From Thermothelomyces thermophilus ATCC 42464 (Eukaryota > Ascomycota > Sordariomycetes > Sordariales > Chaetomiaceae): 64,000 bases of DNA. The notes under the pieces are model-generated. The model made no database searches. It saw only the letters and a list, made by a program, of their open reading frames with translations, and was not told where the DNA came from. Positions 1 to 55,593 of the stretch are shown in pieces (positions within the stretch are counted from its first letter, which is position 1; each line of letters begins with the position of its first letter). The position numbers and the translations under genes are program-made. The DNA lies in NCBI RefSeq assembly GCF_000226095.1, contig NC_016473.1, positions 4,030,001-4,094,000 of the forward strand, in the 5' to 3' direction.

Positions 1-1269
1 TAACGGATATGGGAATAGATACTGGTTCTATGCCAAGTAAAAACGTCGCTAGGGAGACTGGAAGACAAAGAAAAAAATAAAGATAAGGCTCGGGAGGCTG
101 TACATACATATCATCATTTTTTTTAACGGAAGACATAGTCATTGATGCATGGGTGCGGGCGTTCCGGTGCTGGGATATTACTCGGGGTACGGGGTACTCA
201 ATGTTTTATCTTTAACTAGAATCTAGCGCTTCTGTTCGGGTTAAGCGAGTCTGCCTGGGGCAATGAAGCAGCCGGAGGGGTCGCAGGTTCAACCTCGGGT
301 TGGAGAAACTGTTGCGCACTTGCTGCGTCTTGCACATATTAGTGTAGTCGATACAACAGAAAGTACATACAAATCTGGATCTCAACCGTCCTGGGCCATG
401 GGAAGTGTAGACTAATTAATTAGCACCTTACGGATTAGCCAGGGGCTCCTCTCCACTTTAGGGGTTGTTTTGGCGTCTGTTTGGCTGGCTGTAACTTGAA
501 AGCGCGGCTCCCGACGTTCTTGTCTTGGTTCGATATCCAAGAGCGGAAGGGGAACCAGGGTTGATGAGGGTTAAGGTATAACTAACATTACTGTGTACGC
601 CAATTCGAATTAGCCTATCACGTGGGGCGAGTCTCTGGGGTTTTCTCAGCCTAACAAACACTTGAAAACAAGACAACACCGACGAGTTTCACACTGAGCA
701 TAACCAGTACACGAGCAAAACACGGGATTCAATCCGGCATTAATTGCGCAGATTACCAAGTCAACTACCTGGCTGACCCGGACAGGAAGGAGACGTAGGC
801 TATTCCCCGTTTCTTTCTCCTTCACGATATGGGAAGAGGACAGCCCGCAATCTCGCCCCTCCTCTTGTCCCGCTTCTGTTCTTCGTGCCGATTTTCGTCC
901 GCGCAGATTTGGGTTGCTCTAGCAAGATTCCCTGACCTTCTTTATGTGCAAGAAATATTCCCTCGGCAACGACGCTGGGCGCACAGTATATGTACACACC
1001 AACCAGTCACTCAAGCAGTCAGAAACAGAAGGCTGGGATTGAGGATACCGCCATCGTACTCTCAACCACCAGAACGGCACCCGAATTGGACGCCCCAGGA
1101 CTGTGTCTGTCCCTGTCTTCCCTCGCTGGTCACTAATCGAAGACCGGTCTCTGCGCCACCTGACCAGGGGTGGATGTGGATGTCGTCCACAACTGGCCTG
1201 TCTGATCCTGATCAGGAGTCAACTCCGCTCTTTCCCCGACGGAACTCATCTCTCTCGACTTTGGCGAAG
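1..1269. other. Spacer and 5' region of the FCP1-like gene
   Basis: I see no supported gene here. The DNA is mixed in composition, with an A/T-rich patch near 60-130 and only short open frames. The reading frame of the downstream gene stays open back to an ATG at 829, but the 829-1269 part has no compositional bias or recognisable domain. I therefore treat it as 5' leader and promoter. Confidence 0.5.
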
Positions 1270-2856
1270 ATGGACCAGAACCAACCGTGGAATTGGTTTC
1301 AGCAGGGCTGGGTCGGTGACGGACCACCAATACCTTGTGGCCATTCTCCATTTGGCATGCAGTATCACCTGCCTTTCAATTTCGATCCCAGTTGGATCCA
1401 GCCGATAACCCAGCACTCATCCCCTCGGACAAGCCAGTCCCGCCAGCAACATGATGGTAGAGATAGGGATTATGGTCGGTCCGACCGGACAGGCTCTCAG
1501 CGAGAATTCTTCCGGGCGAGTCGATCGCGTCAGCATACCGACGGCAGAGGCCAGGACTATTCGCCGTTCGGTCGCACAGGCTCCCAGCGCCCTCCCGCCC
1601 GCCAGCAGAATCATGCTCGGAACGAGCGTGCTGCAGACCTTTATCGGCCACCGTCCCGGTTCTCTGATACCCAGCGCAACCAACAACAGGAGCGGCAGCA
1701 CGAGGGCGGAGCTTGGGCCGACCGAGGGTATCGCTCACGCGGAGGGCGCCAATGGGGCAGGCGATCTTCCTCGCCTGAGGCCCCCCAGCCGCGGCGGGCT
1801 CCTGCTCCGTCATGGGGAACCGCGGGCAACCCACCTCCGTCTTTCCCCATGGACAACCACCCGGCCGTGGGCCCGTTCAGCTCGACTAGGCCTCTCTGGC
1901 AGAGCAGCGCAAGGGCTGACACGACCTCACACTCGGCCCAACCGAGCCGTCACCCCCCCGACCTCGACAAGACCGGCGGTGATGCCGTCCGGAACACCAA
2001 CAACACCAGCAAGGTCGGCAATAAGAACGCCCCCGCGCGCATGGCCGCGCGGGCGGCCAACACCAACACCAACACCAACAGCGACCGCCGAGGCAACGCC
2101 CGGCCGTCTGGCCCTGTCAGCCCCGCCCCCATCACGGCGCCCTCGGCCGCCTCGGGCGGCGTCCCGGAGCCGACGGCCGAGTACCTCGAGCGCGCGTCGC
2201 AGGAGGCCCGCCGGCTGCCGGCGCCCAAGCCGACGCTGGTCGTGATCGACCTGAACGGGACGCTCCTCTACCGGCCGCACAGGCGCAACCCGTCGCGGTT
2301 CGTCGAGCGCCCGCTGGCGCGCGCCTTCCTCGAGCGCTGCATCGACAAGTACCACGTCGTCATCTGGTCGTCGGCGCGCCCGGAGAACGTCCGGCGCATG
2401 TGCGCGCAGCTGCTCTCGCCCGACTACCTCGCCCGCGTCGTCGCCGTCTGGGGCCGCGACCGGTTCGGCCTGACCGAGCACGACTACAACCAGCGCACCC
2501 AGTGCTACAAGCGGCTGACCCGGCTCTGGGAGGACCCCGTCGTCGCCGCGTCCCACCCGCGCGCCGCCGAGGGCGCCACCTGGAGCCAGGCCGACACGGT
2601 CCTGATCGACGACAGCGCCGAGAAGGCGCGCAGCGAGCCGCACAATGCCGTGACCCTGCCCGAGTTCGCCGGCGACCTCGACGAGAACCCGAGGGTGCTG
2701 CCGCTGGTCGAGCAGTACCTCGATGCGTTGACAATGCAGCTGGACGTCAGCACGTACATCAAGGCCAATCCGTTCACCATGACGACAAGCATCCAGGGCG
2801 AGCCCGTGGCTCTCGTCAAGGGGGGAGAGAAGTCGGGGCAACCGCCTCCTTCCTAG
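1270..2856 (+). CDS. FCP1/NIF-like HAD-fold protein, probably an atypical phosphatase
   Basis: This is a single-exon gene of 528 residues. The first ~300 residues are low-complexity, rich in R, Q, S, G and P, and probably disordered. The C-terminal ~200 residues form an FCP1-homology (NIF) HAD domain. Motif I reads VVIDLNGTLLYRP (D327, N329), motif II is in VVIWSSARPENV, and motif III is LIDDSAEKA. HAD phosphatases of this group act on phospho-Ser/Thr proteins such as the RNA polymerase II CTD. Here the second Asp of the DxDx[T/V] motif is Asn while the nucleophile Asp is kept, so activity is uncertain. The start at 1270 (MDQNQPWNW) is chosen because the in-frame extension to 829 looks non-coding. 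The FCP1-like fold is confident; the substrate is unknown. It converges with eEF1B-gamma. Confidence 0.85.
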   Translation: MDQNQPWNWFQQGWVGDGPPIPCGHSPFGMQYHLPFNFDPSWIQPITQHSSPRTSQSRQQHDGRDRDYGRSDRTGSQREFFRASRSRQHTDGRGQDYSPFGRTGSQRPPARQQNHARNERAADLYRPPSRFSDTQRNQQQERQHEGGAWADRGYRSRGGRQWGRRSSSPEAPQPRRAPAPSWGTAGNPPPSFPMDNHPAVGPFSSTRPLWQSSARADTTSHSAQPSRHPPDLDKTGGDAVRNTNNTSKVGNKNAPARMAARAANTNTNTNSDRRGNARPSGPVSPAPITAPSAASGGVPEPTAEYLERASQEARRLPAPKPTLVVIDLNGTLLYRPHRRNPSRFVERPLARAFLERCIDKYHVVIWSSARPENVRRMCAQLLSPDYLARVVAVWGRDRFGLTEHDYNQRTQCYKRLTRLWEDPVVAASHPRAAEGATWSQADTVLIDDSAEKARSEPHNAVTLPEFAGDLDENPRVLPLVEQYLDALTMQLDVSTYIKANPFTMTTSIQGEPVALVKGGEKSGQPPPS

Positions 2857-5132: not shown

Positions 5133-6174
5133 ATGATGGCATCTTCTTCGCGACAGGGACTCACCTCCGCTCTCCGGGGCGCCTCTAAGGCCCTCAATTG
5201 CGGGCAACGGCAATCGCTCGAGCAACAATTCCGGTCCCTGCGGCTAGGCTCATCGATCGTCTCGGGAAGAAGGCACTTGTCGACCGAGTCGGGTGCCGGC
5301 GAGCAGCAGGGGCTCACTATCACCGCCGCCAGCGAGATTCGGATCAAAGACCTGGCCAAGAAGTACAAAATCGCTCAACATGCCCGCGCAGTGCCCGTGT
5401 CGCCATCCTACTTCTCACGCACACCCACATTCAACGACCGCTACCTCACTCTTGAAAAGCTGGCCAAGGCATATGCCAACCTTCCTGTGGTTCCGGCCGC
5501 CGATGCCGAGCGCGTTGCATGGAAGACGCTGGCAGATCTGAGGCAGTCGTTCGGCGAGCCGGTCAAGGCGACCGAATACGTCAAGTGTCTCGCCATCGTC
5601 AAGAGGCTACATCAGATTCACCCCGACCTCAAACCAGAAGCGGTAACGGCCGCTCTCCAGGACTTCAAGCGCGACGTGCAGGGCTTTCACAACGTGCCCA
5701 CCCCCATACCCATCGACAGATTCGGGCGAGCCCTTGGTGTCGGCAAGAGAAAGTCCTCGACCGCCAGGGCGTTTGTGGTCGAAGGGAACGGGCAGATTTT
5801 AGTCAACGGCAAGACGCTAGCAGAATATTTTGGTCGGGTTCACGACCGGGAGAGCGCCGTCTGGGCGCTGTATGCGGCGGACCGGATCGACAAGTACAAC
5901 GTGTGGGCGCGGGTTGAAGGAGGCGGCACCACAGGACAGGCAGAAGCGCTCACACTGGCCATTGCGAAAGCCCTGCTGGCTCACGAGCCCGCCCTGAAGC
6001 CCGCATTGAGGAGAGGTGAGTGGCAAATCAATTTGGACAGGCATTGCAGCCTTGTGGGCTTCGCTAACCTATTTGTTTCCAGCCGGCTGTGTCACCCGCG
6101 ACCCGAGAAGAGTGGAGAGGAAGAAGCATGGCCGTGTCAAGGCAAGGAAGCGTCCTACATGGGTCAAGAGATGA
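5133..6174 (+). CDS. MRPS9: Mitochondrial small-subunit ribosomal protein uS9m
   Basis: Two exons, 5133-6015 and 6083-6174, encode 324 residues. The N-terminal ~50 residues are basic, Ser/Arg-rich and poor in acids, as expected for a mitochondrial presequence. The S9 domain sits in the C-terminal half: FGRALGVGKRKSSTARAF, then VEGGGTTGQAEALTLAIAKA. The second exon adds the basic tail VERKKHGRVKARKRPTWVKR that contacts the decoding region of the small subunit. Without the 67-bp intron (GTGAGT..TTTCCAG) the frame would run to 6395 and lose this hallmark tail, which is strong evidence for splicing. Family length and order are normal. Confidence 0.95.
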
Positions 6175-9100
6175 TTGTTGGTTGGATGTGCCATTGTGCG
6201 CTTTGGTTTGGCATGGACAAGCGGAGCCTTCTCTCGGCAATGAGGCTCGCGTCTATGTCGGTCCCCTGGAAGCGATTTTCTGTAACAATCTGTACCACGG
6301 TTGACTGTACAATACTACAAGGCATGGAGCTTTCCAGATCGGCGTCTGCGGCTGAGCTGTGCCGAACTCGGCAGTCTTCTCGAAGTTGGATCTGAGTGGA
6401 TGAATCGGAGCGGCATGGCCGAAACGGTCTCAGGTGTAGCGGGCAGTTGAAACGGATGTGAGGGCAAGCTGTCAGGACTACGGGAGTACGGCCCGCATAA
6501 TCCTGGCCCGGTATATCCTGCGCGGCGGGACGAGACAGATCACGCATTCGACCCGGTAATGGTTGGCGAGTCGTAGTCCCAAGACCTGGACCGGCGTCGG
6601 CAGCAACAGAACACGGCGGTTGAGTTCTATACACCACCCGTCCATCACACTGCCGGGACAGCCTGCAGGGAACAGCACCGACATTGTACCGCCCCGAATA
6701 TGCCGAGAGGCGCGTCATGCAAACAGGGTGCGCATGCACGCTGCATCTCCTGGAAGCCCTGCCCACGAGCTTCCCACTCAGGGTACCAAGTATCAGACTT
6801 TCGTTCAAAGCCCAGCGCCTATAACCTCAGCCAGTACCACCTTCTGTGAAACGTCAGCCAGCCTGGGTAAAAGGAGAGTGCTCTCGAGGACACAGACAAG
6901 GAGATTCGGCGTATCGAGAACGGACTATGTTTCCGAGTGCTTCCGGCCACTAACACGATGGGACCTCACAATGCAAAGGCCCATCGGTTCCCAGAGAGGT
7001 CCCGGCTGCCTTGTAGCCACATCCCCAGATGTTGCTTGCTGTCGTTTACTGCACCGCCGCTCGCTCTTCACGGCCGAAAGAAGTCGCAGTCCCTGAAAAA
7101 GGCATATGTACTGTGCCTAGGTAGTAATGTAGATCCGGTACCTTACGTTCGGAATACAATACAACCGGTACAAGTAGGTGCGCACCCGAACCGGTAAGAC
7201 AGTCACACATTTTGCAGGGCGCGGACGGGAGTGTGCAGCTGCGGCTCAATCCTTCTGTGTGTTTTGTCGTGCAGTCCAAGACCGCCCTGTCCTAGCAGGT
7301 CCGCGCGCACCGCCACGCCCAAGCGGCCGGCACGACCGTGCTGCCCTTTCTCCGGGCGACGGCTCCGACGGAGCTTTTGGCAAGCAAACACTCAGACCCT
7401 CTAGACCCTCTAGACCATGCTAACCTGCAGTCCAAGCAGCCAGCCGAATGAACGAGACGTAAGCCGATGGCAAGCGCATGTTGAGGTCATCCCTAGATGG
7501 TAAGCGGGCGGGTTTCGATGCGGAATGCACAGTACTTGTAGTAAGTACTGTACATTCCAGGCTCGCCCAGTTTAACGTGATCTCTGTTCGGGACGCAGGC
7601 GGATGGAGGGTCGGATAGCTATTAGTAGAAAATGGTCAAGTGGCATAGCTATCCGCACCGTACCAGTGAATGGAGGGCGATGATGGCTGATGCCCAACGT
7701 CCAACCTACCCCACGCTCACTGCCGGCTAATTTCATCCTCATGCCCTCGGCAAGTTGTTCCAGAAACTGCGTTCAGTTGCTCTCTGATTTGTGGGCATCG
7801 GGGCTCATTGAAACCGGGTCTTGATCCTGGTCGTGGCGAGCCCACTTGGTGCACGGACGGCGATCGACGTGCAGCATTGGACGTCTTCGACGATGCGCCT
7901 CCACGCGTCAACTACCCTGGCTGACCCCCTGGCTCGAGCTTGGCAGACTCAACCTCTCAACGACCGGGATCCGGGATGTTGAGACGGCCCTCCTTCATCG
8001 AACCAAGACGTGTCGACCAAAGCGCCGCGGCGCTTTGTACCTGCAGTGTACATCCGTACTCGTTCCTTGCGTCGGCGGTCAATCAAGCAAACAAAGGTCG
8101 GTCTCCCCTGCCCGCACCGAAGCCGTCCATGAAACACTCTCCAGCAACCCTTTCCCATGGGTGACTGGCGAGTCATTTGCAACTCATGCTCTCCAGTCTG
8201 AAACAAAGGCATCAATCCTTCCATGTCAGCATTGGGTAGTTAGCCTTGAGGAGCAGCTAACGAGAAGGAAAGTAATGATTTGGACCGAAAGAGCTGCACC
8301 TACCTGCCGTTGATCACCCGACCCACTTCCCAGCAAACCGTTCCCGTCTTCGAGCGCTCTGCCACCAACGAACCAGCAGGCATGGCGAATGGAGACGTCA
8401 GAATGCAGTACGAATCCTTGGAAAGTGCAACAACCATGGCTTAATAATAAAAAAAAACCTCCACGAGATGCGTAAGCTACCTTAGGAACAGCAATCGACA
8501 TGAGGAAGCCCAGGTTCGCCCGCGCGCTCCAGCTCCCTTCCGGACCCCAGGTTCGCTGGGGCCCAAGGTTAGTTAAGTACCTTTCCGTACCTCGAGCCGG
8601 CCAATGTTGCATGGAGATGGTGCGCAGAGCTCTGGTCTGTGTGCAAGGTTTGAACGACGTTCGAGCCCACCATGACGGGCAAACAGAGGATTCGAAACAG
8701 GAAAAAGTACCACTTCGCCCACGCGTTGCTTCTCGCCAATGCGCGTTCAAAACGATATCCGGCATGTCAAAAACCCGGAAGCCGACGGGATAACTTACTC
8801 GTACTGTGAGTAGGCGCTCTCCGTCGGTCAATCTGGGGTTTTTGAGACTCGTCTAGGTACCTGCCCAAAGTACCTCCTACCTTAGGTTATTTTTGCTCCT
8901 TCTGAGTTTATAGCAGTCACTTCCTGGGGAGGGTGGCGCATTATGCGCCATGTGCTCCTTCCTCGCTTGTGGACTCGAGCTCTCCAATCCGTTCAAGGCA
9001 GAAGAAGCACTAGCTCGCCGCGTGCACCTTTGATTGCTTTGAGGTGGATGGAAGTCTCGGCGAAGCCCGGCCATTGGCGCCTTACCCTTGTCTCCATTCA

Positions 9101-15600: not shown

Positions 15601-16378
15601 GGCAGGGAGGGCCGGCGCCGTGGAGCATGCGTCCCCACTCCTCCTTTCCCCGATTCGCGATACGCGCTCTCCAATCAAACGGTGCGTCCTTCTGACCTTG
15701 CTACCAATATACATACATAGTACTTACCTTACGCACAAGTGTTGTACATACAGTACGGTACGAACACGCCCCGATCGCATTGTCACGCGGTTGCGGCTGA
15801 AGGCCGTCATGTCACACACGCCAACCCCGGCACACGAACCCCGGCACACGCACCCTGCTCTGCTGGGCTGAGTCTTCGGGTCAGGCGGGAGCTCGGGGCT
15901 GAGAGATGAGATGGGCCGCGAAATGGATTCGCCGATCGGGCTTTTCCACGTGTGGTGATGAATACTACGCTAGCTGCGTTGTCTGGAGGGTTCCTGGCGT
16001 CTCGTGCATTTCCGTGCCTTCTTTTTCTTTCGGTTTCTCGATGCGGCTTGTTCCATGCACCTCGTACCATCCAAGCACCTTAACCCAATTACTTGCACGC
16101 ATTACTTATTAGTACTTATGTATATGCTAGTCTAGACTTGGAGCCCTCACCGATCAAGAAGCGCCTTCCCCTCTTCCCCCCCGGTAGATTGGGCACCGGT
16201 AAGGTAGTAAGTAGCCGGTTCGAGGCACTTGCAGCTTGACCGAGTCCCCTTCGTGCGTGTTCAGAGACGGAAAGGGCAGGAGCACTCCGCTCTTCACCGC
16301 TGGTCTTCTGACCATCGACCGCTCCTGCCCGCTTGCGAGAGACCCGGGCACCTCTGTCCTACCGACTCTTTCTTTAAT

Positions 16379-16591
16379 TGATGGAAGTTGGTTGGTAAAA
16401 TCAAGATAGTTCAATATTGCGATGTCTAGAGTATTCGTGGGTTCCTGTAAGCTGGCCCTGCAGCCAGGTATAAGAAGAGGGTGGCGCACAGGCCACCCAG
16501 AGAGGGCTCCACCCCACAAAGCCAGGACCCACAAAGACTTATCTAATCTAACCTTACATGCAAGACGCGTCCGTAGACACGTACTGCATCA
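16379..16591. mobile_element. Solo LTR, copy A
   Basis: A 213-bp fossil LTR. It starts TGATG and ends CATCA, so it has TG..CA ends inside a 5-bp inverted repeat. It is flanked on both sides by the same 5-bp word TTAAT (16374-16378 and 16592-16596), a target-site duplication. It shares several long blocks with copy B in the same order and orientation, including a TATA-like GGTATAAG. The internal region is gone, as expected after LTR-LTR recombination. The TGxTGGAA-like start and small size suggest the Ty1/copia group, which is tentative. Confidence 0.82.
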
Positions 16592-17458
16592 TTAATACAA
16601 AAAAAAAACGAGTCCCTGCTCTCCCTCATTCAATCGCAATGCCAAACCACCGAGTGTGGTGATGACCAGGGTGTCGGCATCAACCTCTTGGATTCGATCT
16701 GATTGCCGTGTTTCATGTGATCATAGACAGCAGAGAGGGGCTGGAAATTTGCAGCAGATGTGTAGCAGCATAAAGCGCCCTAGTTGCTAGGGATAGGGAT
16801 GGCGACCTCGTTCGTGAATCGACCTGGCGAAGATGCTTAAGCTCACTTGAAAACCGGAGATTTGGTAATGACTTAGAACCACTCCTGGGAATGTAGTTAC
16901 GTCTCGGCTTCGAGACGTAGGCAGTTATCTGCGGAGCTCAAGGAAAAAACCATCAATCGCGTTCATTGAGGATCAGTGTAATTCGCTTTCGCTGTGTTGA
17001 TAATAAATCCTGCCATTGGTGGCAAGAGAGGAATACCTGGGAGGGATACACCACATACCGTGGCCTCCTGCTGTTGCATCCCCAGCTCTACGGCGGCAAA
17101 AAAGTGATCAAAGTCGAAGGCGACACACATCCCGCAAGGTCCGCGCTTTCTTTTTTGTTTCCTACAATGCTATCCCTTCCTTTCTTTGTTTTCAGTTCTC
17201 CCAGAACGAAGCTGAGGCGAGACTTCGTTTCTATACACTATGATTGTATGTACATGAGCTAGGACATTTTGCCATGGCCCTAAGTATTTGTTACATCTCT
17301 CTTCCTCAGCCTATCTCCCTTTCTTTTCTTTCATATTCTTCTGTTTTGGCTGTGGAACTGAGTAGGAAAAGTTGGCACTATGATCACCCCGTCCATGACC
17401 AGTTCATGAGGATGTCGTAGCCAAGTCCCATCAGCATCGTTCCAGACTAGACCTTGGG

Positions 17459-17649
17459 TGATGGAAGAAGGTTGTAGTAAAATCAAGATAGTTCAAAAGT
17501 GCGATGTCTCTTCTTCTGTTTGATCCTGTATACTGGCTCTGGTATAAGTAGAGGATGGGAACAAAGAACCCACCGTTTGCCAGGATCTACAGGGCTTATC
17601 TCACCTAACCTTATATGATGGACGCGTCCGTAGACAACGGACTGCATCA
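17459..17649. mobile_element. Solo LTR, copy B
   Basis: A 191-bp relative of copy A with the same TGATG..CATCA ends and orientation. It is flanked by its own different 5-bp duplication, TTGGG (17454-17458 and 17650-17654). Because the two copies have different target duplications, they are separate insertions, not the two ends of one element. They have diverged clearly in length and sequence, so neither looks recent, although fungal repeat mutation could exaggerate age. Confidence 0.82.
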
Positions 17650-19275
17650 TTGGGCTTGTCTCAACCCCTGAGCGAGTTTCCCTCCGTCAACGACAATAGG
17701 AAGAACTGGTGAAGATGTCCTGGTCCGAGACTCAATACAGAAACTCAAGGGAGAGATATCGAGCGAGGAAATGACCACTCAGTCTCGGTAGAGGCAGAAA
17801 ATGGATGTACTATCTATAATGGAAAACAAATATCATTGACATTGTGGGCGAAAGGAAGGGACAGCCACAAATCTGCTCAGCCGGTGACATAAGTCCGATC
17901 CACGAGAACGGAAAAAATATATTGAAATGGTCGTGAGACTCTGGATAAACATGAAACTCGAGGGAGATTTGGGCGTTTCCAAATGAACGGCTAAGGAGGG
18001 AGGGGGTGGGGGAACAAAAAGGAGTTGGTTCGACTTTGTAGGACGACGATCAGAACCTACTCAGGGCTCTCAATTGACTCTAGATAGGGTGTATAGGAAG
18101 GCGAGCTCCTTGTTAAAGTGCTATAGAGCATTTAAACTAGCGTGTTAACCATAACATTCATCGGCATAAACTACCAAGAGTATCCCAAGACCTAATAAGA
18201 CGGCATGCTCTCGACTGAAAACAGCAAACTTCGTGCACTACCATGCCACACATGTCACGACCACCTTCACACTGTCCCATACATTCAGGTCTGTGAGTCA
18301 GCTCGGTCGATACGGCCAGCGTCTGGTTGCGCCCCGTTCGAGATTGTTGCCGATGGCTGAGCACCGTGCGGAGGGGGAAAGCAAATGCTTGCGGGACCAT
18401 GGAACGGACTTCTCGAAGCGCATTATGCTCAAGGTGAACCAGAGCTCTCAGGGCCATAATATGGATGAGAGACGAGCACAGGCAGCGGCAAGCCAAAGTC
18501 CCAAAATATTTAGGTATTGTCATCGAACCAACCCCCGTTGACTCGTAGTAGCTGCTGCAGCGGTCGTTGCGAAGGCAATCAAGAGAGAATTGTTTGTATA
18601 TCTGTGGTCATCTCATCGAGGGCAGAAAGCAGAGAAATGAAGGGGGAAGAAAAGACGAAGGCAAAGCAGCGAGCTCCCACAGCTCCCGTCTATATCCTCC
18701 TCCTCGTGCGGGTCCCCCTGTTGGAACTTGGCTCAAGTGTAACCACAAACATATCATTTGAAACCAACCAGGCCCTGGTAAGACTCAGGCACGGGTTAAG
18801 CGGCAGAAGAGAACTCGGATCCGTCAAAGTACTAGGCACGAACCGGCAAAAAAACAAATGATTGTATGGGCCAACATGGGCCCGCGCTCTGAGCAACATA
18901 TTGACAGAAAGACAGGTAGTGCCCCAGTCTGCACGGCGAGCCTGTGAGGCGAATGGGACAGAACCAACTGAGCATGTTCCAGGCGATTTTGCACAACCAG
19001 AGAAAACTCGACCATAGAGGACATTGAGCGGATCACTCTATGCTAAATCAACCACGCGGGGTGAGTGAGGTTAGAAAAAGGTGGCACGAGGGAGCCGGGA
19101 GAGCTTGGGCAAAAAGAGCAGCCAGAAGACCGGTATCTTTTAAGTCGTTGAATACCCAGCTTCCGAGGCGTATCTCATTAGACGAGGTTCTATGGTTATT
19201 CTCCCGACATATACATCTTGACAACGTGAAAAAAGGGGAGTCATCATGCACGTATTCATCTCGTTGCTCATCGCC

Positions 19276-23009: not shown

Positions 23010-25148
23010 AGATGGGACTGAAACGGCCGGCCGTTTGTGCTTTCCCCCATGGTTGTAGTCCGCCGCCGAAGTGCGGCCGGACATTGGCAAGAAGAAAACG
23101 AAATTCTTGCCCTGTATACCATCAACACTCCGATGACTGCATTTTAGCGATAGGATTCCGGTAGAAGAAGGATCGGGCCGGGCGAGGCGTTTTGGTGGAG
23201 GGGTTTCGTGTCGATGATTATGTCAGGCGAAGAAAGCCATGTATATATGATTGCTGATCGTCGGGCAGTGCGCCGTGAGCACCAGCGGCAGCGCTTCTCG
23301 GGCTGTGAAAATTTGAGCAACAGCTCTTTGGACGGATTTCTCGCTCTCCCTTGAGTTGCTCAATGTCGGTGAAGAGGTTGCCGTCGCATAGCAAGCTGTC
23401 CCTTGTGGAAGTGGCGCCATTTGGCGGTGCTAGAAGCCGTGTTGATTGCCACAGAGTGTTGTGGGAGAACAACCTGGCCCGGCATATTCGAGGCGGCAGG
23501 TACACGGCAAGAGAGGGGGAAGTGGCGGTTTTCGGGCGTAACCGGTAAGGCAGGAGTGCGGTGCAGACCTCGTGCATCTCCGACTTCATACCGGTGACGA
23601 TATGATAAGGTAGCTGAAGACGCATGCCCCTGGCGGTGTGGTGCCAGTGTTCGGTCTTCATGTGCTTCATGCGCTTCATGCGCGGGAAGAAGTTCCCGAA
23701 AGTAAAAGTGGGTCTTCCGATCGAATGGTGGCTGCGCTGAGGTGAAGCACCAAAGAGCAGCGGGAAGCGCAGGAAGGCTCACGACGCATGTGCCGGACAA
23801 GAGAGAAGTTGGGGAGCCGAGAATCTCCGCATTGCCTTCATCGCCGAAAGCGGAGAGATAATGTGTTTATCCCCATACCATGGCTGACCCCCCGCTGGCG
23901 CGCGCGGCGGTGCCGCAGAGTCACCCTGAGACAGGGGATAGATAGGCCTGGGCCTCCGTAGCATCCGTTATCACAACCGGCCCTCTGCTGATTCCTGTGT
24001 TTGGGGGCGAGGACAGCCGCCTCCATCACCGGAGTAGACGTCACGCGCTGCCTGTGCCAGGTGCAAGACAGACTTTGCATGTGAGCCGGCTGTCCGTGAC
24101 GACAGGACGGCTTGCCAGGGTACTAACGGCCGTATGCCTCATGTCCCTTTTGTCAACAGAATCCGACAATCGATGACGCGAGTGGTGATGCCAATTGATT
24201 TTTGGTTGGGCTAATGCGGCGTTCCCTGAGAAGACGACACTGAATTAGTCTCTCGAAGCCAGCACCGGAAGAAAGCCCTCCGCCCCTGATCGGACGTCGC
24301 TTCGGGTAACATGTTCAGCCAACGGAGCAAGAACGCATAACATACATTGACGGCGTTTACAGGCAAGACTGCGAGCTTCCGATGCTAGTCTTCTCCCGGA
24401 TCCATGGGTTGCGGGAAGGGCTGGCGTCGGTAGGTCCTGGCATTGGACCCGATGGCTGGCAGCATGAGTGTGCCGCTTCTTGAGGAAATATTTCCGAGGG
24501 GTTCGTCTCGAGCTCGCAAAAAAGAGGATTCGGAGCACAGAGCTCGACCGGGAGCTCTATACAGACGGGGTCTATGGTAGGAGAAAGAGATTGACGCAGA
24601 GACGAAGGGGAGGAATTGTGTACGGTATTGCTCGTTGAGTGGGGGTGTCTGACGGAAGAATACCTACCTTAGCCCCAAAAGACCGTGCCGCTCCACGATG
24701 CGGCTTGGTGGAGCCGAGGCGCCAATCACCGAAAGCAAGTCGGGTGACCTGTGCACGGGTCAGCTTAACAATCGTAAGTTTCGGTACGTATGTAATCCGT
24801 AACATTGTATGCCTCTTGAACCCTGGATTTTTAGCAAATTGACCCCTCCCCGTCCCGATGGGAATGCATGCCCCGCTGACGAAATCAGTGGGCAAGACGA
24901 CCGTACCTTACCCCTCGTTCCCGCAACACCCAGCCCCGAGCCAGCAAATCGATATCAGGTCATCGCGAACGACGCAGGACGCGACGACGCCGCACTCAAC
25001 ACACATACCCAGACTCGCGTTCGAAACCAACATCGTCGTTACGACCTCACCAATAACCCGAAAAGGAGCAGCCCCGTCGACGACCGTTTGTTCAACCCCT
25101 CACTCTCACACACGTATACGCACACACACACACACACACACACACAAT
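23010..25148. other. Spacer between EPL1 and KAE1
   Basis: About 2.1 kb holding the EPL1 3' end and the KAE1 promoter. No gene is recognised; the frames at 23218-23679 and 24245-24538 (minus) lack domains. GTAATCCGTA occurs at 24792-24801, and a CA microsatellite abuts the KAE1 start. The stretch from 24858 is open in frame with KAE1 (see findings). Confidence 0.55.
25121..25146 (+). repeat. (CA)13 microsatellite next to the KAE1 start
   Basis: Thirteen CA units end two bases before the KAE1 ATG, and more CA-rich sequence lies just upstream. In the KAE1 frame it reads Thr-His repeats. Confidence 0.95.
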
Positions 25149-26231
25149 ATGGCTAGCGACATCGCGAGAAAGAAGCGACGTATAGCCCTCGGCTGCGAGG
25201 GGTCCGCCAACAAGCTCGGCATCGGCGTGATCCTGCACGAGGGCGACCTGGGGTCGCCCAAGTCGACGGTGCTGTCCAACGTGCGGCACACGTTCGTGTC
25301 CCCGCCGGGGACGGGGTTCCTGCCCAAGGACACGGCGCGGCACCACCGGGCCTTCTTCGTGCGCGTCGCGAAGCAGGCGCTGGCCGACGCGGGCGTCGGC
25401 CCCGACGAGATCGACTGCGTCTGCTACACGCGGGGGCCGGGGATGGGGGCGCCGCTGACGTCGGTCGCGGTGGCGGCGCGCACGCTCGCGCTGCTCTGGG
25501 GCAAGCCGCTCGTGGGGGTCAACCACTGCGTCGGGCACATCGAGATGGGGCGGGCCATCACGGGCGCCGACCACCCCGTGGTGCTGTACGTGTCCGGCGG
25601 CAACACGCAGGTGATCGCGTACGCGGAGCAGCGCTACCGCATCTTTGGCGAGACGCTCGACATCGCCGTGGGCAACTGCCTCGACCGTTTCGCGCGCGCG
25701 CTCGCCATCAGCAACGACCCGGCCCCGGGGTACAACATCGAGCAGCTGGCCAAGCGAGGGGGCAGGGTGTTGCTGGACCTGCCGTACGCGGTGAAGGGGA
25801 TGGACTGCTCCTTCAGCGGCATCCTGACGCGCGCGGAGGAGCTGGCGGCGCAGATGAAGGCCGGCGTGGGCAAGGGTCCCGACGGGGAGCCGTTCACGGC
25901 GGCAGACCTCTGTTTCAGTCTGCAGGAGACGGTGTTCGCGATGCTGGTGGAGATCACGGAGCGGGCCATGGCGCACGTGGGGAGTAGCCAGGTGCTCATT
26001 GTGGGCGGCGTGGGGTGCAATGAGCGGCTCCAGGAGATGATGGGTCTCATGGCGGCCGACCGTGGCGGGAGCGTCTACGCGACGGACGAGCGTTTCTGTA
26101 TAGACAATGGTATCATGATAGCGCATGCCGGCTTGCTGGCGTACGAGACGGGGTTCAGTACCCCGGTCGAGGATAGCACGTGTACACAGCGATTTAGGAC
26201 AGACGAGGTGCTCGTCAAATGGAGGAAGTAA
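25149..26231 (+). CDS. KAE1: tRNA threonylcarbamoyladenosine synthase subunit, KEOPS complex
   Basis: A single-exon gene of 360 residues, the normal length for Kae1/OSGEP. It has the ASKHA fold motifs [15 protein letters not shown] (N-terminus), [18 protein letters not shown], and [14 protein letters not shown] (phosphate loop). [26 protein letters not shown] and [14 protein letters not shown] follow. The metal ligands are visible: the HxxxH pair in [10 protein letters not shown] (H126, H130) and D319 in [12 protein letters not shown]. In the cytosol and nucleus the KEOPS complex transfers threonylcarbamoyl to A37 of ANN-decoding tRNAs; in yeast it also affects telomeres and transcription. 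The start [11 protein letters not shown] is chosen because conserved sequence begins right after it. The frame is open upstream to an ATG at 24858, which could give an extended form. Confidence 0.95.
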
Positions 26232-36448: not shown

Positions 36449-38950
36449 CTATTCTTCCCGCTTCGCTTCCTCCTCCTCCTCCTTCTTCTTCTTCTCTTTT
36501 TCTTCGGCCGACTCCCTCTCACTCCCCTCTTCCTCCTCTTCCTCCTCCTCCTCCTCCTCACGGCGGCGCAACTCTTCCTCGATCTCCTCCCTCTCCAAGA
36601 TCCTGCCCCCGGCACTCGGAGGCCTGTGTTCCGGCGGGGCGTCGCCGCCGCTCAGCTGCCACTCCATCAGCTTGCTGAAGGCGCTGTTCTTGTCCGCGCT
36701 GAGCTCCGCGTAGCTGCCGACCTCGGCGACGGTGCCCTCGCTGGAGAGGACGATGATGCGGTCGGAGCGCTTGATGGTCGAGAGGCGGTGGGCGATGGAG
36801 ATGGTGGTGCGGCGGCGGCCCTGGAGGAGGGCGGCGAGCGCGGCGTTGACGAGCGTCTCGGACTCGGCGTCGAGCGCCGACGTCGCCTCGTCCAGCAGCA
36901 GGATGTCCGGGTCCTTGAGGAGCGCCCGCGCGATCGCGATGCGCTGCTTCTGCCCGCCCGACAGCTGCGCCCCGCGCGGCCCGACCTGCGTCTCGAGCCC
37001 GTCCGGGAAGTCGCTGATGAAGCCGCAGTTGGCCTTCTTGGCCGCCGCCACGATCTCGGCCCGGCTGGCCTCGGGCTTGCCGTACGCGATGTTCTCGGCG
37101 ATGGTGCCCGAGAAGAGGACGGGCTCCTGCGCCACCATGCCGATGCGCCGCCGGAGCGACTTGACGTTCATCTTGGAGATGTCGACGCCGTTGATCGTGA
37201 TGGTCCCGCTGGTCGGGTTGTAGAAGCGCAGGAGCAGCGAGGCCACGGTCGACTTGCCGCCGCCCGAGGGCCCCACGATGCAGACGTTGGCCCCCGACGG
37301 GATCTCGAAGTCGAGGTCGCTGAAGATGGTCACCGCCGGCCGCGTCGGGTAGGCGAAGCTGACGTTGGAGAACTTGATGGGGCCCTGAGCCGAGGCTACC
37401 TTCATGCCCGTGGTCTGGTGGATCGTCGGCTTGCGGTCCTGGAGCTCGAACAGACGGCTGGCGGCGCCCACCCCCTTCATAAGTTCCGAGTAGAACCCGC
37501 TGAGCCCGAAGAGGCTGGAGCCCGCAAAGACGGTGTACATCATGAACGAGGTCAGGTCGCCGACCGACATGGACCCGGACCGGACGAGGTTGCCTCCCAC
37601 GATCAGCATGGCCAGGACGGTCATGTTGCCGCCCCAGCTGGTCGAGGCGAAGAAGGTGCCCGAGATGAAGGCCTCCTTCCGGCCGAGCGAGAAGACCTTC
37701 CTGACCTGGTTGCTGTACCGGTGGATCTCCTGGACCTCGCCGGCGAAGGCCTGGCTCGTCTTGACGTTGCCCAGCCGCTCTTCGGCGATCTTGCTCATGG
37801 TGCCGAGGTTCTTCTGGATCTGCCTGCTCAGCTGCCGGATGCTGCGCCCGTACAGGAACGCGCCGATGGCCATCGGCGGCACCATGACGAAGATGACGGA
37901 CGTCAGCTTCGGGCTCAGCCAGGCCATCATGACGAAGCCGGCCGCGCCGCTGACCAGCGCCCGCAGGCCGTCGGACAGGTTCTGCGTGATGCTCTTGCCG
38001 ACGACGACCGTGTCCGAGCTCAGGCGCGAGATCAGGTCGCCGACCCTATTGGCGTCGAAGAACTCGGCGTCCTGCACGTACGTGCGGCGGTACAGCTGGG
38101 TGCGCAGCCGCGCCACGACGCGCTCGCCCACGATGCGGAGCAGTATTATGCGCCCAAAGTTGGCCGACGCGCCGATGGTCAGGACCGCAGCTAGGCCGTA
38201 GAAGAACTGCCGAAGGGTGACTCCGAAGATCTTGGCTTCGTCGATCGAGCCCTGGGTGGAGATATCCATGATCCTGCCCACGGAGAAGGGGATCGACATG
38301 GTGACGGCCGAGGAGATGAGGAGCAGGACAAAGGCGGCACTCAACCACTTGATCTCGGGCCGGGCGATCTTGATGAGCCTCCAGACTTCGGACAAGCCGG
38401 GCTTGCCCCGCGCGCCAACGCCTTCCTTAGAGAGCCGCGCGCTCATGTTGATCTGGGCCGCCTTGGCCGCCTTCTCGCTCCTGTGGAAGTCGCGGGCTTC
38501 GAGAGGCTCGGCGCCAACCTCCTCCTCTTTCGGATCCGTCGTAGCTGGGGCGTTTTTATTGCCGGCTGTGACTCCTACTCCCCTCAAGCCCCCTTTCTCC
38601 TGCTGGAGAGTCGAGCGCGTCATCGAGAGGTATCGAAGCGCGCTGGCCGGCGACGCCCATCTGGGCTGTCCCAGCCATTGCCGGGGCCCGGCAGGCAGAC
38701 ACGACGTAGTGCTCGCGGGGGCGGTGGACGCCGGCGTCCGGGGTATCGAAGGGGTCTTCGGGGCCCCGAAACCGGAAGAGAAAGTGCGGGTGGTCGGTCG
38801 GCATGTGATGGCGAGGGTCGTGGCGGGGAGAGGAACAACAGCGGCTACGGCGGCCGCTGGTATGCTCGCATGGCCGAGGCCGCGTTCGAGGCCGCGTTGC
38901 GGGAGCAGCGTGGCGCGGCGCATCGCCACAGCTGCCGCTCCCGAGACCAT
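36449..38950 (-). CDS. MDL1: Mitochondrial ABC half-transporter, MDL1/ABCB10 type
   Basis: A single-exon gene of 833 residues. The first ~190 residues are Ala/Arg/Ser-rich and basic (MRRATLLPQRG, TTRTFSSGFG), consistent with a mitochondrial presequence. A six-helix transmembrane domain spans ~195-470. The nucleotide-binding domain has Walker A GPSGGGKST (~562), Q-loop VAQEPVLFSG, signature LSGGQKQRIAIARAL (~663), Walker B ILLLDEATSALD (~684) and the switch His in ISIAHRLST. Mdl1 is an inner-membrane homodimer that exports peptides made by m-AAA proteolysis in yeast. The last ~55 residues form an extreme Glu/Lys/Arg run (EEEEEEEEEEE) not expected in the family. Mdl1 rather than Atm1 is favoured by the SGFYSELMKGVGAASRLFEL region. 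Confidence 0.92.
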   Translation of the reverse strand: MVSGAAAVAMRRATLLPQRGLERGLGHASIPAAAVAAVVPLPATTLAITCRPTTRTFSSGFGAPKTPSIPRTPASTAPASTTSCLPAGPRQWLGQPRWASPASALRYLSMTRSTLQQEKGGLRGVGVTAGNKNAPATTDPKEEEVGAEPLEARDFHRSEKAAKAAQINMSARLSKEGVGARGKPGLSEVWRLIKIARPEIKWLSAAFVLLLISSAVTMSIPFSVGRIMDISTQGSIDEAKIFGVTLRQFFYGLAAVLTIGASANFGRIILLRIVGERVVARLRTQLYRRTYVQDAEFFDANRVGDLISRLSSDTVVVGKSITQNLSDGLRALVSGAAGFVMMAWLSPKLTSVIFVMVPPMAIGAFLYGRSIRQLSRQIQKNLGTMSKIAEERLGNVKTSQAFAGEVQEIHRYSNQVRKVFSLGRKEAFISGTFFASTSWGGNMTVLAMLIVGGNLVRSGSMSVGDLTSFMMYTVFAGSSLFGLSGFYSELMKGVGAASRLFELQDRKPTIHQTTGMKVASAQGPIKFSNVSFAYPTRPAVTIFSDLDFEIPSGANVCIVGPSGGGKSTVASLLLRFYNPTSGTITINGVDISKMNVKSLRRRIGMVAQEPVLFSGTIAENIAYGKPEASRAEIVAAAKKANCGFISDFPDGLETQVGPRGAQLSGGQKQRIAIARALLKDPDILLLDEATSALDAESETLVNAALAALLQGRRRTTISIAHRLSTIKRSDRIIVLSSEGTVAEVGSYAELSADKNSAFSKLMEWQLSGGDAPPEHRPPSAGGRILEREEIEEELRRREEEEEEEEEEEGSERESAEEKEKKKKEEEEEAKREE

Positions 38951-48253: not shown

Positions 48254-51072
48254 ATGACCTCCCGTGAGTTCTTTCGCTTCTCGATTATCGATCGACCCAT
48301 CGGGACAGAAGGAATCGCGGCGACGGCAATAGCTGACCACCCCGCTACCCCACAGTCAAGCAGTTCATTCGCAATGTGCGTGCCGCAAAGACGATTGCCG
48401 ACGAGAGGGCTGTTATTCAAAAGGAGAGCGCGGCCATTCGGGCGAGCTTCAGGGAAGAGAGCGCAGACCATGGCGTGAGGTACTCGCGAAGCGACAGAGG
48501 AAGCCCCGTGAAGGCATGCAGGTGCTGACCGCCTCCTTTTTTTGCAGGCGCAACAATGTGGCCAAGCTCCTCTACCTTTTTACCCTCGGCGAGCGAACAC
48601 ACTTTGGCCAGATCGAGTGCTTGAAGCTCTTGGCCTCGCCTCGCTTCGCCGACAAGCGGCTAGGACATCTGGCGACAAGCTTGCTGCTCGATGAGAACCA
48701 AGAGGTCCTGACTTTGGTCACCAACTCTCTGAAAAAGTGCGACACTGTCTGAAGGGCAGCTGGGGCGTATGTGTCTCGGGAATTGCTTACTGACTCGGGC
48801 TCGTTAGTGACCTGTCTCATTCGAACCAATACGTCGTCGGCCTCGCGCTCTGTACCCTAGGTAACATCGCCTCGGTCGAAATGTCGAGAGACCTGTTCAG
48901 CGAGATCGAGAGCCTCATATCCACGGCGAATCCCTACATTCGACGGAAAGCCGCTCTCTGTGCCATGCGGATATGCAGAAAGGTCCCGGACTTACAGGAG
49001 CACTTCATCGAGAAGGCGGCGGCGCTGCTCTCGGACCGCAATCACGGCGTGCTGCTTTGCGGTATTACCCTGGTCACCAGCCTTTGCGAAGCCGACGAGG
49101 ACGAGGGCGGGGAGTTGGGCGTCGTCGACAAGTTCAAGCAATTCGTACCTGTGCTCGTGAGGACGCTGAAGGGCTTGGCCTCCTCGGGCTACGCGCCGGA
49201 GCATGATGTCACCGGGATTACCGACCCCTTCTTGCAGGTCAAGATTCTGCGTCTTCTCAGGGTGCTGGCCCGCGGGGATGCCCAGGTTACGGAGCAGATC
49301 AACGACATCCTGGCGCAAGTTGCGACCAACACGGATTCGTCCAAGAACGTCGGAAACTCGATCCTCTACGAAGCTGTGCGGACCATTCTAGACATCGAGG
49401 CAGACGCGGGGCTTCGGGTTCTTGGTGTCAACATCCTCGGCAAGTTCCTGACCAACAAAGACAACAACATCCGCTACGTCGCCCTGAACACGCTTGTCAA
49501 GGTGGTGGCTATTGACACCAATGCCGTGCAACGGCACCGCAACACAATACTGGAGTGCCTGAGGGACCCGGATATCAGCATCAGGAGGAGGGCTCTGGAT
49601 CTCAGCTTCACGCTGATCAACGAGAGCAACGTCAGGGTGCTGATTCGCGAGCTGTTGGCGTTCCTGGAGGTGGCTGATAACGAGTTCAAGCCGACCATGA
49701 CCAGCCAGATCGGTATTGCCGCTGACCGCTATGCGCCCAACAAGCGGTGGCACTTTGACACGATGCTCCGCGTGGTGACTCTAGCGGGCAACTACGTCAA
49801 GGAACCTATCCTCTCATCTTTCGTCCGCCTCATTGCCACCACCCCCGAACTACAGACATATGCGGTGCAGAAGTTGTATGCCAACCTCAAGAAGGACATC
49901 ACCCAAGAGAGCTTGACACAAGCCGGTGCCTGGTGCATAGGCGAGTACGGTGAAGCTCTGCTGCGGGGTGGCCGGTATGAGGAAGAAGAGCTAGTGCAGG
50001 AGGTCAAAGAGCACGAGATTGTCGACCTGTTTTCGACAATTCTCAACAGCAGCTATGCCTCGCAAGTCACTACCGAGTACATTATCACGGCGCTAGTCAA
50101 GCTTACGACGCGACTATCGGATGCGGCCCAGATCGAGAGGATACGGCGCATCCTGCAGAATCACCAGACCAGTCTGGATGTCGAGGTTCAGCAACGCGCC
50201 GTGGAGTTTGGCAACCTCTTTTCATACGACCAGATTCGCCGAGGCGTGTTGGAGAAGATGCCTCCGCCGCAGATCAAGGAGGAGTCCCGCGTGCTGGGCG
50301 AGGCGGCTAAGAAGACAAACAAGGCGGCGAACCGGAAGTCCAGGGTGATCAAACCAAAGGAGGAGGATCTCCTCTTCGACCTAATGGGCGAGAGCAGCGG
50401 CCCCGCGCCGCCGCCGGTCAACGGCACCGGCAATGCCGACTTGCTCGCAGACATCCTCGGTGGAACCAGCTCACCGCCTCCCGCTACCACATCGCCTCCC
50501 CCAGGTCAGTCAAACGTGGCGTCCATCATGGATCTCTTTTCGCAAGGCCCCGCCTCCACGCCTTCCCCAGCGCAGAGTGCCGCCGCGCATGCCCCTCCCA
50601 GCGCCGACCTCTTCTCGGCAACTGCATCGCCGCCTCCCCAACCCGGCCCTGCTGCTGCGGTCGCCGCAGCCCCCGGATATCCCTGCTATGACAGTAACGG
50701 CTTGGTCGTGACCATCCAGACACAAAGAAACGCCGAGGGCATGATTCAGGCCACTGCCCGGTTCCGAAACTCGTCTGCCGCGGGGCAGCTGTCGAACGTT
50801 GGACTTCAGGCGGCCGTACCAAAGTCGCAGAAGCTGCAGCTGCTGAGCATCTCATCCTCAGAGCTTGCGGTCGGAGCCGAGGCGACGCAGTTGATGAGGG
50901 TTGCGGGATGCAAAGGAGTAAGTGTTGACAATGAAATCTGATTGGTGTGGGTATCGATGTGCTGACTCGATTGTGCTACGCGCAGCCTCTGCGTCTTCGT
51001 TTGAGGATAGGGTATTCCCACCCTACGGCAGGACAGGTCATGGACGTTGTCAACTGGACGGAGCCGTCGTAA
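48254..51072 (+). CDS. APL4: AP-1 complex gamma-adaptin
   Basis: Five exons (48254-48263, 48356-48479, 48548-48736, 48808-50917, 50986-51072) encode 839 residues. The trunk opens [20 protein letters not shown] and has the adaptin N-terminal repeats, with [40 protein letters not shown] and [21 protein letters not shown] Pro/Ala/Ser hinge spans ~590-700 and includes the clathrin-box-like LLFDLMGE and DLFSQGP. The ear follows ([15 protein letters not shown]) and the last exon supplies [22 protein letters not shown]-1 recruits clathrin and cargo at the trans-Golgi network and endosomes. Skipping the last intron would lose the conserved ear end. The first exon is ten bases. Confidence 0.96.
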
Positions 51073-53178: not shown

Positions 53179-55593
53179 TCATGTCTGGATATACCCGGTC
53201 TTGGCCAGGGCCTCCTCGAACAGCTCCCTACACCTGACCCGGCTGCCCAGACGGGCGCACAAGAGGAACGCGCCGCTCAGCTTCCGGTGCAGGCTATAGG
53301 TCTCCTCGGGGGGCGGGGCCAGGCGCTCGCGGATCATGACGGGGATCTGGGCCTTGACGCGCTCGGTGATGGTCTGGTCGCGGAAGTCGTAGACGTCCGG
53401 GGCGTCGCGCAGGAAGGGCTCGGCCAGGGTCAGCACGCTGGTGACGTGGGCGTCGAGCATGGACCTGCTCTCGTGGCCCGTCAGGTAGCCGAGCTGCTCG
53501 CTCAGGTGCTTGACGGCGGCGCGGTCGGCGCGCGACGCGGCCTCGAGCAGGCGGACGTAGAGGGTGACGAAGCGGTCCGGGTACTCGCGCGAGGCGCCGA
53601 AGTCGAGCAGCTCCAGCTTGCCGGTGCCCGCGTTGTACAGGAAGTTGGTCCAGTTGGGGTCCGTCTGCATGAAGCGGAACTCGGTGATCTCGCGCAGGCA
53701 GAGGCGCAGGATCTGCGTGCCGATCCAGTCGCGCTGCGCCTGCGTGAAGGAGGCGATCCGCGTCACGGCCGTGCCCTCCATGAACTCCATCGTCAGCACG
53801 TGCGGGCCGCTGGCCTCGCGGTAGACGCGCGGGACCGAGAAGACGGATTCCTCTTTCGGAGGCGAGGAAGAAGAAGACGACGAAGAAGAGGGGCGGGTGA
53901 GGAGGAGGTCACGGTAGCGTTCGGCGCACTCGGCCTCGCGGGTGTAGTCGCACTCCCAGGCCAGCTCCGTCCGGGCGTTTTCGATGGTCTTGTCGAGGTA
54001 CAGGCCCTTGGGCAGGAGCTTGGTGGCGGCGAGAAGGATGGCGAGGTTGTCGAGGTCCGAGTTGATCGAGTCGGCCACGCCGGGGAACTGGATCTTGACG
54101 GCGACCCGGGCCCCGCTGGACTTGAGGGTCGCGCGGTGGACCTGGCCGATGGAGGCCGCGGCGATCGGCTTGTCCTCGAACTCGCAAAAGAGGTCGCGCC
54201 AGTTCTCGCCCAGGTTGGCCGCCAGGACGCGGTCCCGCTGCCAGCCGGGCATGTAGTCGGCGCGGTCTTGGACCCGCTGCAGGACCTCCTGGATAGGCGC
54301 CGGGAGCATCTTGGCGTCCTGGAAGCTCATCATCTGCCCGAGCTTGAGAGCGGCGCCGCGCATCCGCGAGAGCTTGGCTACCAGCCGCTCCATGTTGGCC
54401 GCGTTGAGCATCACCGGGCCCGAGCCACCGCCGCCAATGGCCCGGCTGAGGCCCTCTCCTATCGCGCCCGCAAACATGCCTGCCGCGAGGCCGCCGTAGT
54501 TCCAGAGCCGGCCGATCCGGGTGGAGGGAACGGCCGACTCGCGGAGCTGGTAGGCGGCAGCAGCGCCCGAGGAGAGAGGGTTTGGCTTGGCCAGGTCCGA
54601 GATGATGCTCGCGTCTTCTCGGGAAGGTGGTTTCTTTTCGGCGGCTTCAGGGGCCCAGCTTGCCGGAGCTTCCTCTGCCGATCTTGCTCCATGCTCCGTC
54701 GTCTCGGCTTGACTTTTTGCAGGGTCAACTTGGACCGGTTTGTCTGCGGCTTGTTCTGGCGCCGGGGGAGACGCCCGTTCCCGTTCCCGATGTGATGTTG
54801 GCGGCGCGGTCACTTCCTGCTCTCTTCTTCCCTCGTGATCCTCGGTCCCTCCAGTGTTCTCCGCGAGAGATCCGCTAGTTGCATCGACAGACGCGGCCGG
54901 CTTTCGAACTTCATCCCCCCCCTTTTCCTCCATCTCCTTCAAAACTTCCAGGATCTGCGATCCTTCTTTAGTCCGGAAATGGCTAAGATCGATCCCGGGT
55001 ATGCCCACCGCGGGCTTCCTCAACAGTTGTGGAGGCCGCTTCGGAGGCACAAAGCCCTGCTTTAAAAGCGCGATGCCACCGTCCGCCCACGGGGCAGGCT
55101 TAAACTCGGAGCTCCCTCCGCTTGCCCGCGGCGCTTCATCTCTCCGGCCCTCCGCCGCTTGCCCAATTGCACCCTCTCGGCCGCGAGTCTCGACCTTACC
55201 CTCTGACCCCGTAGCCGACACAGAACTCGTCTCGGCATCCGGCCTTGCAACGGGCGTCTCGTCAACCCGCAGCCCCGGCTCCCCCGCGGCCCGCTCTTCT
55301 TCCGCCCCTTGACCGCTCCCTGCCCCGGCTTCGGCTCCGGCTTCGGCTTCCTGTCGTGGCTGCTGCTGCTGTTGCTGCTCCGCCGTTGCCGCTGCCGCTG
55401 GTTCTGGACTCTGTGCCTGCTGCTGACCCTCCCGACCCTGCCTCTGCCTCCTCCCCAGGACGGCCCCGACAACGTCGGACCCGCGGCTGTACCTCTCCAC
55501 CTGCCTGGCTCTCAGCGCCACGTGCTTGCTCGCCACCGCACGCGACGCGCTCGCGACGGCGGCGAGGTCGACGAGCAGGTGCGCGAGGCCCAT
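53179..55593 (-). CDS. COQ8: Coenzyme Q biosynthesis atypical kinase COQ8 (ABC1/ADCK)
   Basis: A single-exon gene of 804 residues. The N-terminal ~360 residues are mostly low-complexity (Q, E, A, P), longer than in yeast Coq8 (501 residues). The UbiB kinase-like domain has the KxGQ motif in ALKLGQMMSFQD (~414) and the Ala-rich nucleotide loop AAASIGQVHRA (~477). It also has the ATP-contact lysine in VAVKIQFPGV, the catalytic-loop-like QTDPNWTNFLYN and the metal site LLDFGASREY (~662). COQ8 sits on the matrix face of the inner membrane and supports the CoQ synthome through ATPase activity. The N-terminus MGLAHLLVDLAAVASASRAV could target mitochondria. Its minus strand is very GC-rich, which creates a long false frame on the other strand. 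Confidence 0.95.
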   Translation of the reverse strand: MGLAHLLVDLAAVASASRAVASKHVALRARQVERYSRGSDVVGAVLGRRQRQGREGQQQAQSPEPAAAATAEQQQQQQPRQEAEAGAEAGAGSGQGAEEERAAGEPGLRVDETPVARPDAETSSVSATGSEGKVETRGREGAIGQAAEGRRDEAPRASGGSSEFKPAPWADGGIALLKQGFVPPKRPPQLLRKPAVGIPGIDLSHFRTKEGSQILEVLKEMEEKGGDEVRKPAASVDATSGSLAENTGGTEDHEGRREQEVTAPPTSHRERERASPPAPEQAADKPVQVDPAKSQAETTEHGARSAEEAPASWAPEAAEKKPPSREDASIISDLAKPNPLSSGAAAAYQLRESAVPSTRIGRLWNYGGLAAGMFAGAIGEGLSRAIGGGGSGPVMLNAANMERLVAKLSRMRGAALKLGQMMSFQDAKMLPAPIQEVLQRVQDRADYMPGWQRDRVLAANLGENWRDLFCEFEDKPIAAASIGQVHRATLKSSGARVAVKIQFPGVADSINSDLDNLAILLAATKLLPKGLYLDKTIENARTELAWECDYTREAECAERYRDLLLTRPSSSSSSSSSPPKEESVFSVPRVYREASGPHVLTMEFMEGTAVTRIASFTQAQRDWIGTQILRLCLREITEFRFMQTDPNWTNFLYNAGTGKLELLDFGASREYPDRFVTLYVRLLEAASRADRAAVKHLSEQLGYLTGHESRSMLDAHVTSVLTLAEPFLRDAPDVYDFRDQTITERVKAQIPVMIRERLAPPPEETYSLHRKLSGAFLLCARLGSRVRCRELFEEALAKTGYIQT

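Follow-up and report, generated by a model that had tools for sequence, protein, structure and literature searches.

Copies A and B are two short repeats in the window, which is the whole 64,000-nucleotide stretch that was analysed (positions 4030001-4094000 of contig C2, in a host genome of 38.74 Mb and 7 contigs). They are most probably solo long terminal repeats (LTRs), the relics of two related Ty3/gypsy (Metaviridae) retrotransposons that inserted separately in the genome of a filamentous ascomycete, a reading to which we give a probability of roughly 0.93. Each element would have integrated through a 5-bp staggered cut, producing the duplications TTAAT at A and TTGGG at B. The two LTRs of each element would then have recombined with one another, and the interior and one LTR would have been lost. 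Recombination between LTRs is an established route to solo LTRs. In the case of B, we infer from the homology of its LTR that the lost interior was also of Ty3 type. A small annotation question is thereby settled: there were two independent insertions, most likely Ty3-type, and A and B are neither a single element nor copia.

The two copies and their flanks

The first-pass annotation had described two copies of 213 and 191 bp with TGATG...CATCA ends, set in the same orientation, and had read them as independent solo-LTR insertions, each with its own 5-bp duplication. The lengths, ends and shared orientation agree with the coordinates (Table 1) and with blastn within the window, by which A and B are about 70% alike across 217 alignment columns (E of about 1e-19 to 1e-20), and the duplications proved exact at both copies. 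No interior lies beside A or B, an exact duplication standing directly at both ends of each LTR. Although the orientation is indeed the same for the two copies, the strand read earlier runs antisense to the element. The strand of A comes from the interior junction of L004, an A-type copy elsewhere in the genome, and from the orientation of the integrase pieces described below, while for B, homology with a large subfamily of related LTRs points to the minus strand as the putative sense of the element. The host DNA between A and B, queried as 861 bp, has a single match in a search of the host genome, namely itself, and A and B are therefore not one element.

A Pfam scan of nine frames in the window identified six of them as ordinary genes, which are included in Table 1.

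Table 1. Coordinates of the features in the window.
Feature	Position	Length	Strand	Remarks
NIF phosphatase	829-2856			Pfam
Ribosomal protein S9	5133-6395			Pfam
Target-site duplication of copy A, left	16374-16378		none	TTAAT
Copy A, solo LTR	16379-16591	213 bp	-	subfamily A; TGATG...CATCA ends
Target-site duplication of copy A, right	16592-16596		none	TTAAT
Host DNA between A and B, as queried	16593-17453	861 bp	none	first 4 bases are part of the right duplication of A
Target-site duplication of copy B, left	17454-17458		none	TTGGG
Copy B, solo LTR	17459-17649	191 bp	-	subfamily B; TGATG...CATCA ends
Target-site duplication of copy B, right	17650-17654		none	TTGGG
TsaD	24858-26231			Pfam
ABC transporter	36449-38950			Pfam
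Adaptin	48881-50941			Pfam
ABC1 kinase-like	53179-55593			Pfam

Related copies and LTR subfamilies

When used as a query against the host genome, copy A matched at least 41 places (64 candidates, 40 scored), copy B at least 40 (121 candidates, 40 scored) and an LTR copy of the large subfamily at least 40 (120 candidates, 40 scored). The searches with A and with the large-subfamily LTR supplied 57 loci, which represent 46 distinct copies, 42 of them testable for a flanking duplication. The 15 loci left out comprise 11 duplicates of another locus (L014, L016, L018, L022-L028 and L030), three in which the 3' end was not recognised (L007, L008 and L013), and L009, where the 3' end is present and the 5' end is not recognisable.

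An exact 5-bp duplication flanks 24 of the 42 tested copies, which are solo LTRs of 166-241 bp. In a control with swapped flanks, a matching 5-mer occurred in 27 of 1722 pairings of different copies. L046 is a less secure case among the 24, its CCAAT being present also in the LTR's own repeat. Because at least 41 and at least 40 genome matches are listed for A and B, and because of these duplication counts, a chance origin of the likeness between the two copies is excluded. The genome search with tabulated flanking 5-mers had been suggested along with the original description of A and B, and it gave, among the copies tested, 24 solo LTRs, together with two elements of about 8 kb that have both LTRs. 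It gave nothing for the proposed preference for targets beginning with TT, which is found in 2 of the 24 duplications, those of A and B themselves. No motif is obviously shared among the 24, and the mean GC of their flanks is 0.53, with values below 0.40 in 3 of 48 flanks.

In the remaining 18 copies, element interior is joined to the LTR at one side. The junction resembles a polypurine tract (PPT-like) in 4 of the 18 (L021, L050, L058 and L062) and a primer binding site (PBS-like) in the other 14. Two pairs of distant LTRs have a common outer 5-mer: CTAAT for L021 and L057, 66 kb apart on C6, and GTAGC for L058 and L052, 69 kb apart on C5. Each pair may mark one element that nested insertions have divided, or the agreement may be a chance coincidence.

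In an LTR tree of 34 rows, drawn with a midpoint root, A clusters with five copies (support 100/99) in a clade without B, and B clusters with L010 and L011 (89/98), the large subfamily forming a group of its own (97/96). Judged by this tree, A and B fall in different subfamilies within one LTR lineage, so that their earlier description as one family is right for the lineage but not for the subfamily. At L004, an A-type LTR adjoins a stretch of about 203 bp from the same interior (blastn, L073:8311-8514), which ties subfamily A to that interior. In the clade of B, all three inspected copies are solo (L010, L011 and L012), and there are further close relatives at C1:2401334 (87%) and C5:1023155 (86%); subfamily B would be tied to the interior through LTR homology only.

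The outer U5 end of the large-subfamily LTR carries between 0 and 2 additional tandem repeats, each about 20 bp long (L019, L020, L029, L041, L042, L046, L053 and others), and the target duplications sit outside the outermost of these. The first 30 bases 3' of the 5' LTR, read in the sense direction, look like an inverted repeat, which was seen in L004, L047-L049, L052, L054, L056, L057, L059-L061, L063 and L067. Both arms in L004, the sole A-type copy among these, differ from those of the large subfamily and still pair by eye. It is conceivable, if rather unlikely, that the lineage has an unusual start site, the inverted repeat and the U5 repeats being perhaps the trace of a reverse transcription that primes itself or slips in the primer region.

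Superfamily of the lineage and rival readings

Copies A and B had been assigned tentatively to Ty1/copia. That assignment is not supported by the interior carried by the same LTR lineage, which looks like Ty3/gypsy by its integrase C-terminal pieces and by Ty3 protein matches in two of seven interior stretches. On the sense strand of the large subfamily, the purine-rich GGCAGGGGA precedes the LTR (PPT-like), and TGGTAGC... starts two bases 3' of it (PBS-like). Three of seven integrase C-terminal pieces match the Pfam domain SH3_Tf2-1 (E 6.7e-7, 1.7e-4 and 0.21), the best with a score of 29.8 bits, just below the Pfam cut-off of 30; the other four have no match. A 75-aa integrase piece was found at 29 genome places, 9 of which have an LTR 411-438 bp downstream among the 67 LTR places listed, on the expected strand relative to the piece in 9 of 9 cases; the other 20 say little, the comparison set being those same 67 places. 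A search of solved-structure sequences with a 75-aa piece gave one irrelevant match (E 0.18), and a search of plasmid DNA gave none.

The protein query was a 466-aa stretch of an intact Ty3 element from the same genome that spans H2C2, rve, SH3_Tf2-1 and Chromo. Searched by tblastn against the seven interior stretches, it matched L021 (2.5e-11) and L050 (1.2e-10) with 24-27% identity, and gave no match at E 0.01 in L062, L058, L018 (the same copy as L058), L072 or L075. The two alignments cover part of the integrase core and extend as far as the beginning of the chromodomain. The best match of this query is to L037 (2.7e-26), one of ten Ty1/copia control loci, and is read as a probable Ty3 fragment next to a nested copia insertion. 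Against a Ty3/gypsy assignment, neither 8-kb element contains a listed place for rve (108 of 108 candidates scored) or, among the matches listed, for RVT_1 (150 of 1117 scored), Chromo (PF00385, 150 of 330) or SH3_Tf2-1 (150 of 912), which may be explained by decay and by the number of candidates scored. When five pieces of a 1.2-kb stretch, L075, were compared with Pfam, one gave no domain but RNaseH (E 0.064 and 0.1), and the other four had no Pfam match. The integrase pieces and the protein matches fit the Ty3/gypsy order.

A Ty1/copia origin of the LTRs is very improbable, even though RVT_2 is common in the host genome (88 places) and short LTRs with 5-bp duplications are compatible with copia too. 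Parts of six interior pieces, from five copies (L058/L018, L049, L052, L056 and L057), do match 4 of the 10 RVT_2 loci that were fetched (L032, L035, L037 and L039; blastn). However, these parts do not start directly at the LTR but farther in, and they are absent from seven copies that align over the full 1.5 kb (L047, L048, L059, L060, L061, L063 and L067), as expected of nested copia insertions. Furthermore, the LTR was found in none of the 10 fetched loci (of 88, with 1.5-kb flanks each), and Ty3-like integrase sequence precedes the LTR on the PPT side. Nor did a search with 88 of 88 RVT_2 candidates scored place any of them within either 8-kb element, a result that is not absolute, both elements being decayed.

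Another reading would make A and B the LTR pair of a single short, non-autonomous (TRIM-like) element whose interior is 867 bp, as their common orientation, the 867 bp between them and their matching ends would allow. This is scarcely credible, as each copy has its own duplication, the clade of A (100/99) excludes B, and the spacer DNA matches nowhere else in the genome. In addition, the four exact PBS-like and PPT-like patterns of the large subfamily are absent from both strands of the window, the A-type PBS variant being outside this pattern set. A third idea, for which the TGATG/CATCA ends and the small size might speak, is that A and B are DNA elements of the MITE-like type, whose short inverted ends are flanked by 5-bp duplications. 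It can be dismissed with near certainty, as related repeats bound the 8-kb elements and lie beside integrase sequence as well as PBS-like and PPT-like motifs.

Decay by RIP and comparison with known systems

The two-LTR elements of this lineage consist of L050 and L060, about 8.35 kb on C7 with CTCAT outside both LTRs, and L062 and L048, about 7.9 kb on C1 with CTCGC outside both. Within the pairs, 7 differences separate the LTRs over 221 sites and 8 over 240 sites, respectively; all 15 are transitions, 12 of them in CpA/TpG context, which is the context preferred by RIP. The interiors contain many stops. One paper (PMC7882544) gives RIP thresholds of a product index >1.15 and a substrate index <=0.75, and places Thermothelomyces thermophila among the genomes with high RIP. 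By these thresholds, of the 17 interior-side pieces (1.5 kb each), some of which include other nested repeats, 16 are RIP-like, L018 and L058 among them being one copy; the exception is L049, with a product index of 1.17 and a substrate index of 0.86. No RIP-like signature is seen in the DNA that flanks and separates A and B (product 1.09, 0.64 and 0.69; substrate 1.00-1.36). The two indices are 1.00 and 1.04 for copy B and 1.17 and 1.19 for copy A, so that A's product index alone is marginally over its threshold, and RIP-type decay is not clearly present in A and B themselves. Short solo LTRs may escape RIP, being under its length threshold.

The tested copies of the family are thus either solo LTRs with exact duplications or copies joined to a mostly RIP-decayed interior, as is to be expected, and A and B are ordinary genome debris. 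No description of this LTR family was found in the literature searched, which consisted mostly of titles and abstract openings, and we do not claim that the family is unpublished.

The Ty1/copia elements of the same genome, with their 88 RVT_2 places, are likewise LTR-type retrotransposons in many copies, but the LTR lineage described here was not found in the ten of the 88 loci compared. Many Ty3-type copies with open frames of 1264 and 1287 aa and equal Pfam scores coexist with decayed ones in this genome (for example, C1:6988754-6989782). Compared with these chromovirus-type Ty3/gypsy elements, the interiors of the lineage are stop-ridden and, in the parts that align with the intact stretch, have 24-27% protein identity to it, and the chromodomain is merely touched by the alignment, with none found by Pfam among the matches listed. 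Nevertheless, the lineage resembles them in its SH3_Tf2-1-like integrase C terminus near the 3' LTR, its TG...CA ends and its 5-bp duplications. In Aspergillus flavus, one report (PMC9910759) counts solo LTRs in AT-rich elements, unlike the flanks here with their mean GC of 0.53, but in both fungi gypsy-type solo LTRs are counted beside decayed gypsy elements.
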